Origin: Halanaerobiales bacterium
GTDB lineage: Bacteria > Bacillota > Halanaerobiia > Halanaerobiales > DTU029
Assembly: GCA_022360715.1 (NCBI GenBank)
Contig: JAKSCG010000145.1
Coordinates: forward strand, 1 to 64,000
Direction of reading: 5' to 3'
Length of the DNA stretch: 64,000 nt
The translations under genes and the position numbers were made by a program. The notes under the pieces were generated by a model. The model saw nothing but the letters and a program-made list of their open reading frames with translations, was not told where the DNA came from and did no database searches. This document shows positions 6,867-9,294 of the stretch, piece by piece; within the stretch, counting starts at the first letter, position 1, and every line of letters starts with the position of its first letter.

Positions 6867-6895
6867 TTGCATTATTTAAGCTATTGGTGTAAAAT
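6867..6895 (+). promoter_or_regulatory. promoter of the leader-peptide RNA
   Basis: TTGCAT (6867-6872), 17-base spacer, TAAAAT (6890-6895). Transcription would begin near 6902, just before the ribosome site of the seven-codon leader ORF. Confidence 0.65.
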
Positions 6896-6925
6896 ATAAA
6901 AGATATATAAAAGGGAGGTCGTTTG

Positions 6926-6949
6926 ATGAGTGAGGTTGTTCTTAACTAA
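6926..6949 (+). CDS. seven-residue leader peptide (MSEVVLN)
   Basis: ATG 6926 follows AAGGGAGG with a spacing of 7 bases, better than most genes nearby. The ORF is seven codons long and its codons 5-7 plus stop form one arm of the long stem described for the surrounding RNA. The peptide itself is probably only a sensor of ribosome behaviour. Confidence 0.5.
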   Translation: MSEVVLN

Positions 6950-7085
6950 TTAAATTAATAAGATCTTAGAAGTTCGAAAAACCCTGTCTATCTGGGCTTA
7001 TTTGTCGTGCATTTAAGATCCTCTCTAGTTAAGAACACGGATGACCAATCTTTAAAGCGTTCTAGATCTATTATTTGCTGTTACG

Positions 7086-7107
7086 CCGTGCTTTGCACGG
7101 TTTTTTT
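7086..7107 (+). terminator. intrinsic terminator of the leader RNA
   Basis: Perfect 6-bp stem CCGTGC / GCACGG with a TTT loop, followed by seven T. Confidence 0.88.
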
Positions 7108-7160
7108 ATGCGTCAATCCTTGAAGGGCATAAGATAGCAGATATATAGATAAAATGAAAG

Positions 7161-7193
7161 CTACAGGTGTATTCTGTTCACCGGTAGTTTTTT
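7161..7193 (+). terminator. second intrinsic terminator
   Basis: Stem CTACAGGTG / CACCGGTAG (one mismatch), 9-base loop, then a run of six T and a further T-rich tract. It lies 54 bases after the first terminator with no gene between. The remaining stretch to 7315 shows only a possible 19-codon TTG ORF (7235-7294) with nothing to support it. Confidence 0.8.
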
Positions 7194-7315
7194 GTTTTTT
7201 GCTGTATTAATAAATTTACCTGAAGGGGGGCTTATTGATCACGATTAAAATGAATCTAAAACAAAGGGTATTAAGAAAAAGTTGGCTTATCTAGAAAAAA
7301 TGGAGGTAATTTAAA

Positions 7316-7828
7316 TTGATCGAAATAAGAGAAGAAAGAAGAGAAGATTATCAGGCAGTCAGAGATGTGAATAATCAAGCATTTAATCAACCACAGGAAG
7401 GAATGATAATCGAAAAAATAAGGGAATCCGGAGTTGAGATTTTATCTTTAGTTGCTATTATTGATAATAAAATAGTTGGACACATCTTTTTTAGTCCGGT
7501 CAGGATGGAAGAGCAAGCAACTTTAAAAGATGGAATGGGGTTAGCACCCATGGCCGTTCTTCCTGATTATCAGCAGCAAGGAATTGGTTCAAAATTAATC
7601 AAAGAAGGAATACAAAGATTAAAGCTCAAGTCTGTACCCTATATCATTGTCCTCGGCCATAAGGACTATTACCCTAAATTTGGATTTGAGACTGCTTCAA
7701 AATATGGTCTGAAATGTCAGTGGGACGGTGTTCCGGATGAGGCTTTTATGGTAATGATTTTAGATGATAAGATGAAGCCAAAGATTCATGGTGTTGCTAA
7801 ATACAGAGATGAATTTGATGAAGAGTAA
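7316..7828 (+). CDS. GNAT family N-acetyltransferase (YhbS-like)
   Basis: A 170-residue acetyl-CoA-dependent transferase. The core motif for acetyl-CoA binding is GLAPMAVLPDYQQQGIGSKLI (residues about 81-101), preceded by beta strands with VGHIFFSPV and followed by the YYPKFGFETA segment typical of the YhbS group. Substrate is unknown. The start is TTG with TGGAGGT 8 bases upstream; no in-frame ATG fits. It stands alone, downstream of two terminators and upstream of the riboswitch promoter. Confidence 0.9.
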   Translation: MIEIREERREDYQAVRDVNNQAFNQPQEGMIIEKIRESGVEILSLVAIIDNKIVGHIFFSPVRMEEQATLKDGMGLAPMAVLPDYQQQGIGSKLIKEGIQRLKLKSVPYIIVLGHKDYYPKFGFETASKYGLKCQWDGVPDEAFMVMILDDKMKPKIHGVAKYRDEFDEE

Positions 7829-7911: not shown

Positions 7912-7926
7912 TTAATTAAACGGTAA

Positions 7927-8018
7927 AATAAAGGGGAGTAACTTGCCGATTGGTGTGCCATTCGTCATCTCGGTGCTAGGATAAGCATCCGGATGGTACT
8001 AAAAGTGAGACCTTTATT
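7927..8018 (+). promoter_or_regulatory. yybP-ykoY (manganese) riboswitch
   Basis: The element shows the class hallmarks: P1 arms AATAAAGG (7927-7934) and CCTTTATT (8011-8018), the conserved GGGGAGTA after the first arm, the CTCGGTGCTA segment (7969-7978) and GAGACC before the closing arm. Riboswitches of this class bind Mn2+ and usually control Mn2+ exporters or related membrane proteins. The right P1 arm is also the left arm of a terminator (8010-8045), so ligand binding should prevent termination: an ON switch. The only gene behind it is the small membrane protein at 8082. Confidence 0.88.
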
Positions 8019-8045
8019 CATGATTTTCATGAGTAAAGGTTTTTT
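8010..8045 (+). terminator. riboswitch-controlled terminator
   Basis: ACCTTTATTCATGA (8010-8023) pairs over 14 positions (one G-T) with 8027-8040, followed by a run of T. Its left arm overlaps the P1 closing arm of the riboswitch, so the two folds are mutually exclusive. Confidence 0.9.
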
Positions 8046-8081
8046 ATTTTATGGGAGGTTTGGAGAAAGGGGGTGTATAAT

Positions 8082-8327
8082 ATGTACTACCTAGTAGTCA
8101 TTGTGATTGCGTTAATAATGGCCTGGTTACTTCAGGTATTATTTAGTGGTAAAGAGATGCCTGGTGGTTACTGGAATCGATTAGTAGGTGCTTTAATCGG
8201 TGCCTGGATCGGTGATCTTATTTTAGGTGATTGGGGTTGGATGCTGGCTGGTTATAATGTAATTGCTGGTATCATTGGTTCGTTTATTGTCGGTTGGCTT
8301 TATATCTTAATATTTGCTAAGAAATAA
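8082..8327 (+). CDS. GlsB/YeaQ/YmgE family small membrane protein
   Basis: An 81-residue protein with three hydrophobic helices separated by glycine-rich turns (GGYWNRLVGALIGAWIGDL, then GYNVIAGIIGSFIVGWLY), the layout of the transglycosylase-associated / GlsB-YeaQ stress family; the name is historical and no enzymatic activity is established. ATG 8082 fits the GGGGG ribosome site at 8069-8073 better than the GTG at 8073. Expression is expected to depend on Mn2+ through the upstream riboswitch. A role in Mn2+ or envelope stress is an inference from that control. Confidence 0.85.
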   Translation: MYYLVVIVIALIMAWLLQVLFSGKEMPGGYWNRLVGALIGAWIGDLILGDWGWMLAGYNVIAGIIGSFIVGWLYILIFAKK

Positions 8328-8601: not shown

Positions 8602-9294
8602 ATGAAAGTATTTGAGATAGCTATTTTAGTTTTTTTAAAAAACGATATAGATTCAAAAGAAGCATTTTCAAAGATTAGTGGATTTATTGATAGTGGATTG
8701 GCAAAAAAGTCAAAATTATTAGAACTCCATAATAAGAACACATATAAAAACTATTGTTTTTGTTCATTTTACCCATTAGAAAAAAACAAAATTTACGGGG
8801 TCGGAAAAAACTATACAATTAGAATAAGAACGGTTGATTACGAACTGGCGCAATTTTTCTGTGAGGAATTAGTCAACCATTTTAATGACAATTTAAAAGC
8901 TTTAACATCGACAATAAGAATCTTGCCGAAAAACCATATAGAGAAAATTTATTCGATAACTCCTTTAGTATTGAAAACTAATGAAGGGTATTGGAAGGGC
9001 CATATTTCGTTAAATGACTTCGAAAGGAGGTTGAAAGATAATTTAATAAAAAAATATAATCTCTTAATGAATACAAAAATAAATGAAGACTTTCCGCTTT
9101 ACACATCGATAGAATTTAAAAACAAAAAGCCGGTCGCGATTAATTATAAAGGAAAAAAGATTCTTGGAGACAAACTATCTATCCATATTAGTAATGATAA
9201 AATGGCACAAGAACTGGCATATATGAGCTTAGGAACAGGAGTTTTAGAGATGAATGCCCGAGGTGCTGGGTATATGAATGTCAAGTGGTTATAA
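8602..9294 (+). CDS. cas6: CRISPR-associated endoribonuclease Cas6 (orphan)
   Basis: The 230-residue protein follows the Cas6 plan of clostridial type I systems: an N-terminal RRM-like half with LLELHNKNTYKNYCFCSFYP, where His43 is the candidate catalytic residue, followed by YTIRIRTVDYELAQFF, and a C-terminal half ending in the glycine-rich loop LGTGVLEMNARGAGYMNV. Cas6 cuts CRISPR precursor RNA within the repeat. No other cas gene and no array lie in the window; one repeat-like element stands 99 bases downstream (9393-9422). AAGGAGGAGG precedes ATG 8602. The gene is strongly AT-rich compared with the core region, consistent with transfer. Confidence 0.72.
   Translation: MKVFEIAILVFLKNDIDSKEAFSKISGFIDSGLAKKSKLLELHNKNTYKNYCFCSFYPLEKNKIYGVGKNYTIRIRTVDYELAQFFCEELVNHFNDNLKALTSTIRILPKNHIEKIYSITPLVLKTNEGYWKGHISLNDFERRLKDNLIKKYNLLMNTKINEDFPLYTSIEFKNKKPVAINYKGKKILGDKLSIHISNDKMAQELAYMSLGTGVLEMNARGAGYMNVKWL

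Follow-up and report, generated by a model that had tools for sequence, protein, structure and literature searches.

Leader-peptide attenuation is a long-known kind of gene control, and its leaders mark genes that are switched on under translation inhibition; hence, an unlisted leader class points directly to unrecognised resistance and ribosome-rescue genes. Several described systems resemble the element reported here. The Listeria rli80/hflXr leader (PMC6310831) and the Bacillales uORFC-6-1 upstream of hflX (PMC8632094) likewise combine a uORF with alternative RNA structures, and Listeria hflXr, which is under uORF attenuation, is a duplicated ribosome-splitting factor (PMC6310831). The leaders of the ARE-ABC-F genes vmlR, cplR and lsaA (PMC10201436, PMC9226507) are similarly built, with a 5′ hairpin that covers a very short uORF and with a terminator/anti-terminator switch. 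E. coli toiL, upstream of topAI-yjhQP, is also a short uORF, and was proposed to be a stall sensor of several ribosome-targeting antibiotics (PMC12121999). With translation attenuators of the erm, cat and cfr types, the present leader would share a stall on the leader peptide that frees a downstream strand, and with those of the trp and his types it shares a leader peptide placed in terminator/anti-terminator geometry.

The element lies in a 64,000-nucleotide stretch of DNA from a Halanaerobiales bacterium (hereafter, the window), where a sequence-only reading had described it as a leader-peptide attenuator of the sort found ahead of inducible resistance genes. Conservation, covariation and competing pairings strongly support this proposal, and we estimate the probability at roughly 80% that the element works by ribosome-mediated attenuation of transcription and responds to translation stress, with a GNAT acetyltransferase gene as its likely target. 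Comparative sequence analysis shows its sequence, the seven-codon ORF, stem P1, the alternative pairings and the tandem terminators to be conserved traits of a Bacillota-wide RNA family. The features of the window, in its own coordinates, are the following.

6867-6895, + strand: weak promoter-like site TTGCAT-17-TAAAAT (TTGCAT 6867-6872, TAAAAT 6890-6895); from the sequence
6913-6918, + strand: Shine-Dalgarno (SD) sequence GGGAGG of the leader ORF; from the sequence, kept in the family alignment
6917-6925, + strand: 5′ strand of P0, a basal stem of 9 bp (partner 7038-7046); from folding
6926-6949, + strand: leader ORF ATG AGT GAG GTT GTT CTT AAC TAA, seven codons (MSEVVLN-stop); from the sequence
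6937-6948, + strand: 5′ arm of P1, overlapping the final codons of the leader, stop codon included; from the sequence and covariation
6953-6960, + strand: conserved box AATTAATA (AATTnCATA in the family); from the family alignment and folds
6962-6970, + strand: 5′ strand of the nested stem P2 (partner 7012-7020); from folding
6995-7005, + strand: conserved box GGCTTATTTGT (RGnTTATTT in the family); from the family alignment and model scores
7026-7037, + strand: 3′ arm of P1, TAGTTAAGAACA; from the sequence and covariation
7036-7040, + strand: putative anti-terminator strand CACGG (partner CCGTG, 7086-7090); from the family pairing test
7038-7046, + strand: 3′ strand of P0, CGGATGACC, overlapping the anti-terminator strand; from folding and the permutation test
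7085-7108, + strand: terminator T1, GCCGTGCTTTGCACGGT plus T run (hairpin 7085-7101); from the terminator scan
7156-7200, + strand: terminator T2 (hairpin 7156-7192 plus T run); from folding and family comparison
7175-7179, + strand: TGTTC within T2, with GAACA (7033-7037) as possible partner; from the pairing test
7316-7828, + strand: gene for a GNAT acetyltransferase, the probable target; begins with TTG, SD sequence GGAGGT about 9 bases upstream

Much of the earlier description is borne out by this anatomy: the ribosome site, the seven-codon ORF, the nested second stem and the two terminators are all in place. P1, which had been given as a perfect stem of 11 bp, is indeed perfect and measures 12 bp. 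The loop motif CGTGC (7006-7010), presented as the competitor of the terminator, is present but falls outside the strongly conserved columns, and it is the CACGG/CCGTG pairing (score of 14 in the window) that is backed instead. Stem P0 had been overlooked. The promoter, described as consensus, fared poorly, matching 8 of 12 consensus positions and lying under the scan threshold, with better sites equally common in shuffled sequence; 5 kb contained 24 promoter-like sites, and shuffles contained 23.7. Taken alone, the anatomy of the window is not compelling against chance and is only mildly unusual: the fold of the leader has a z-score of -2.4, and a shuffled window is expected to contain about 0.9 perfect inverted repeats whose arms measure at least 12 bp. 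It is conservation that raises the leader above chance, the window scoring 82.3 bits (E=5e-16) against a covariance model trained on 61 loci from other genomes, with the window left out, and its parts other than P1 surpassing all shuffles.

The loci behind this model were collected by a genome scan in which the P1 repeat had to be exact and its arms 70-100 bases apart, which recovered at least 117 loci compared with about one by chance (an expectation estimated from base counts); the named ones belong mostly to Paenibacillus, Brevibacillus, Bacillus and Halobacillus among the matches listed. Read in one or both orientations, 112 of the 117 loci listed have an in-frame leader ORF, preceded by an SD sequence, next to the repeat; the rule used found none in the other five, four without a leader and one cut by the end of the locus. 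In the forward orientation, the ORF nearly always starts exactly 12 bases 5′ of GTTCTTAACTA and encodes seven codons, M-x-x-x-V-L-N-stop. This seven-codon form is that of most loci, also among matches that were not chosen by the stem pattern, and the very peptide of the window, MSEVVLN, recurs in L063 (a Bacillota MAG), L074 and L226. 'Leaders' of the form MISxVLN were excluded because they are artefacts of reading the near-palindrome on the opposite strand. Four Elusimicrobia MAGs (L059, L079, L114 and L124) share the GTTCTTAACTA inverted repeat; in at least two of them it is embedded in a longer ggggac...gtcccc palindrome, with no leader ORF, and it has the look of an unrelated repeat or a REP-type element.

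Since P1 had served as the search key, the remaining parts of the window were scored separately. The 5′ part alone reached 14.2 bits and the loop alone 15.1 bits; with 2000 dinucleotide shuffles of each, neither score was attained. Matches to the covariance model occurred in at least 75 of 400 sampled Bacilli genomes and at least 20 of 399 Bacillota genomes, these counts being lower bounds because scoring was limited to 7 to 15 candidates per genome. The genome of the window carries a single copy, the window itself; a genome of the host family has one match (L176), as has a genome of the host order (L177; weak and AT-rich). With P1 fixed, the ATA of the first box was unpaired or partly paired in 62 of 62 folds.

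In agreement with the earlier statement that the RNA belongs to no recognised family, no match to the window exceeded the Rfam 15 gathering score, and the sub-threshold matches were chance ones. Searching 60 relatives with the region by blastn returned chance matches only, those inspected falling within coding sequence or at the start of a gene, and a single-sequence covariance model (R1) found among relatives only one terminator behind a glycogen-phosphorylase-like gene. Synteny via the upstream QueG-like gene or via the GNAT did not recover the leader, a protein search of genome contigs with the QueG-like gene found nothing, and no relative of the leader emerged from phage and plasmid collections (blastn) or from IMG/VR (exact stem pattern). 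A likeness of the T2 region to the start of a SpoVT gene was judged to be due to chance.

In the first 61 sequences P1 is fixed by the search pattern; the later model hits, in contrast, are not bound to the letters of P1, so that its covariation can be tested in these, and the evidence for covariation comes from them only. The leader peptide ends in VLN in most members, with VLK, VLS, VQI, VQN, VIN and FFN as variants, and the opposite arm of P1 often compensates for the variant codons, VLK, VIN and FFN included. Examples of such compensating arms are GTTCTGAAC/GTTCAGAAC (L226), GTTCTTAAA/TTTAAGAAC (L174-L176), GTGTTTTTTAACTA/TAGTTAAAAAACAC (L231) and AACTG/CAGTT, with a TGA stop (L240). Across 62 hits, in a P1-fitted alignment, a few rows of which are antisense matches to the near-palindrome, 98% of the P1 cells pair and both sides change in 7 of 11 base pairs, with neither measure matched by any of 500 shuffles; versions of P1 slid out of register pair at 28-49%. 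Thus, both the stem and the leader ORF, whose lack of conservation in relatives would have spoken against the sequence-only reading, are kept. RNAalifold detected no conserved pairs beyond P1 in the family, since members differ in the P2 region, which does not align; P2 nevertheless formed in every individual fold inspected.

Directly 3′ of P1 lies a strand of the type ACGGATA, and its pairings, assessed by permuting mates among members (a test that ignores kinship among them), would suit a switch element. Among 78 distinct T1-bearing members, the best helix with the left arm of T1 scored 12.67 on average, against 11.19 +/- 0.25 for permuted mates (maximum of 11.97 in 500), none of the 500 permutations being as good; ACGGATAA/TTATCCGT (L054), CGGC/GCCG (L080) and CATAGC/GCTGTG (L082) illustrate this pairing. 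The same strand also pairs with the region of the ORF start, as in P0, again better than all permuted mates (0/500). Pairing of the end of the P1 3′ arm with the loop of T2, GAACA/TGTTC in the window, is weaker (1/500). T1 was detected in 100 of 113 members, T2 in 80 and both in 69, which makes the T2 of the window part of the element; after P1, T1 and T2 stand at +48 and +119 in the window. T2, at about +110 after P1 in the family, has a conserved sequence of its own, ..GAATGA....GTTCATTC.., with GTTC in 57 of the 80; this conservation exceeds what an ordinary terminator would need.

Genes downstream of the relatives encode mostly an SMR-less MutS2 paralogue, with rarer BpsA-like, ABC-F, ABC, kinase-like and GNAT proteins. 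Clustering of the ORFs that follow the pattern loci put 84, among the matches listed, into one group, a MutS2 relative of about 640-720 aa, and 20 into another, which has a BpsA_C domain and follows about one-fifth of the classified loci. The short MutS2 relative matches TIGR01069 at about 1e-180 over core and ATPase, and B. subtilis MutS2 (7qv3, 8qpp) at 1e-117; in alignment with full-length MutS2 it retains the KOW-domain region, lacks most of the linker and ends ahead of SMR, and in Pfam it matches MutS_V only. The rarer classes, each seen once or a few times and several of them with lower RNA scores, comprise ABC-F (L229, with the leader MFIHVLN, and L231), a multidrug-type ABC half-transporter (L174, L175, L228 and L230), an APH-like kinase (L239), a GNAT at a distance similar to that in the window (L156 and L244), a serine hydrolase (L176) and a glycosyltransferase (L177), of which the half-transporters, the serine hydrolase, the glycosyltransferase and the ABC-F of L231 were named by eye from the sequence. 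The serine-hydrolase or beta-lactamase-like gene of L176 stands 345 bases 3′ of a leader with the variant peptide MIMLVLK, and the target gene thus seems to vary within the host's own lineage. The BpsA_C proteins, of about 390 aa, were found behind the leader in L216, L215, L245, L249, L248, L234 and L104; in those read, a TDPPYTLQG motif is present and the C-terminus carries a CxxC pair resembling a zinc ribbon. The protein could modify the ribosome as a methyltransferase or aminopropyltransferase.

The GNAT gene of the window (domains PF13527/PF13508; solved relatives 4zbg and 4rs2) is not of the main target type. It starts 279 bases past P1, and family targets start at about +100 to +400; because of this match in position, the GNAT is probably under the control of the leader, and the earlier statement that no gene stands behind the RNA is probably wrong. 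Two further features lie nearby. At 7926-8051, directly 5′ of the gene for an 84-aa membrane protein (8073-8327), there is a second leader, riboswitch- or attenuator-like, in which the P1 AAAGG/CCTTT overlaps a long terminator (fold z-score of -5.7); Rfam contains no match to it, and it is missing ahead of nine homologues, two of them in the same genome. Its ends resemble those of the yybP-ykoY (Mn) riboswitch, of which no match was found. A gene for a Cas6-type CRISPR endonuclease (PF01881) occupies 8602-9294, with no other cas gene noticed adjoining.

These elements suggest how the switch might operate. When the ORF is read freely and the ribosome leaves, P0 and P1 would re-form and sequester the strand after P1 (CACGGATGACC), T1 and T2 would fold, and transcription would end. 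A ribosome stalled at the last codons or the stop codon would mask the 5′ arms of P0 and P1, and the freed 3′ strand could then pair with the left arm of T1 (CACGG/CCGTG), while GAACA of the P1 arm would perhaps pair with TGTTC in T2. With the terminators blocked, RNA polymerase would continue into the downstream gene, in the window the GNAT. The inducing signal is likely to be translation inhibition, for example by ribosome-targeting antibiotics, given that the downstream genes are of ribosome-rescue, target-protection, efflux and modifying-enzyme types and that B. subtilis without MutS2 is hypersensitive to such drugs, namely chloramphenicol, tetracycline and erythromycin (PMC10897456).

Other explanations have to be weighed against attenuation of the GNAT. 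It is unlikely, although with an appreciable residual probability, that the leader belongs to the same family and is an orphan in this genome, its original target (e.g., a short MutS2) having been lost; in that case, the RNA would be a by-product or a small RNA that ends at T1/T2, and transcription of the GNAT would be independent. The genome of the window would fit such a loss, since the one MutS2 that it encodes is full-length (807-aa frame) and a short paralogue is lacking; between the leader and the GNAT there are T2 and about 120 bases, and this GNAT is of a family unlike that of L156 and L244. However, tandem terminators and a comparable gap are normal in target-bearing members, a GNAT does stand behind the leader in these two loci, and the promoter scan found no promoter-like site between T2 and the GNAT. 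Furthermore, all conserved parts are retained in the window, which implies that the element is not decaying. The stand-alone small RNA that the sequence-only reading had entertained is likewise disfavoured. As for the family as a whole, the leader being a chance structure, a MITE-like inverted-repeat mobile element or the mere terminator of the upstream gene is refuted and retains practically no probability. The frequency of 12-bp inverted repeats in shuffled windows, the single genomic copy and the failure of blastn to find relatives at the DNA level would all be in keeping with it, but ORF, boxes, terminators and gene association are conserved across Bacillota, with compensatory changes.

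Different signals can also be envisaged for the attenuator. A nascent-peptide sensor that stalls at the stop codon in response to a metabolite such as a polyamine, instead of antibiotics, is improbable. The gene with the domain of BpsA, a branched-chain polyamine synthase, behind part of the loci is suggestive in this respect, and the fixed length of the ORF and its conserved end would suit termination stalling; nonetheless, a BpsA_C domain alone does not demonstrate polyamine synthesis, and the main target, the MutS2 paralogue, as well as ABC-F and multidrug-type ABC proteins, fit translation stress better. We give a slightly smaller chance still to amino-acid starvation, whereby uncharged tRNA-Val, -Leu or -Asn would cause a stall at VLN. 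Most members do have the VLN end, and a stall there would free P1; against this, repeated cognate codons are absent, the endings vary as listed above, and none of the downstream genes classified is an amino-acid biosynthesis or aminoacyl-tRNA synthetase gene. The response to translation inhibition thus remains the preferred reading, and the fixed VLN-stop end may reveal a stalling context not previously described.

The leader family flags the SMR-less MutS2 paralogue in many Bacillota genomes. MutS2 splits stalled ribosomes, and for survival of erythromycin its ATPase weighs more than its SMR domain (PMC10897456). From the splitting activity and the drug sensitivity of B. subtilis that has lost MutS2, the paralogue is predicted to be an inducible ribosome-protection factor. 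We lean, if only slightly, towards the broader view that this is an undescribed and very widespread class of translation-stress attenuators controlling an uncharacterised class of inducible resistance proteins, namely SMR-less MutS2 paralogues as ribosome splitters, with BpsA-like, ABC-F, ABC-exporter and GNAT genes in a regulon of the same type; the window would contain the GNAT version, in a host outside Bacilli.

The leader, its VLN-stop peptide, the link to SMR-less MutS2 and the spread of the family were found neither in Rfam 15 nor in the open-licence full-text papers searched. Compared with the described systems, trp- and his-type attenuators have repeated cognate codons and a biosynthetic target, neither of which is seen in the present family. 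The leaders of erm, cat and cfr type expose the resistance gene's ribosome site, whereas the present switch would act on intrinsic terminators; toiL, of unrelated sequence, works by occluding the ribosome site of topAI and by way of Rho. The ARE-ABC-F leaders are paralleled in that two members of the family (L229 and L231) precede ABC-F genes, but their uORF consensuses are MR[I/M], MIN and MAGN, as opposed to MxxxVLN accompanied by two conserved loop boxes and T1 plus T2. The rli80 peptide has 14 aa and an RLR motif, which is absent from MSEVVLN and from the family leader peptides listed, the present ones having seven codons and the VLN-stop end; relative to rli80 and uORFC-6-1, the family also differs in its structure, its tandem terminators and its mostly MutS2-like targets. 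Nevertheless, the target of these two leaders is a duplicated ribosome-rescue factor, a copy of hflX, which closely parallels the short MutS2 copy found here. The balance also tips marginally in favour of MutS2 paralogues with ATPase and KOW-like region being to MutS2 what HflXr is to HflX.
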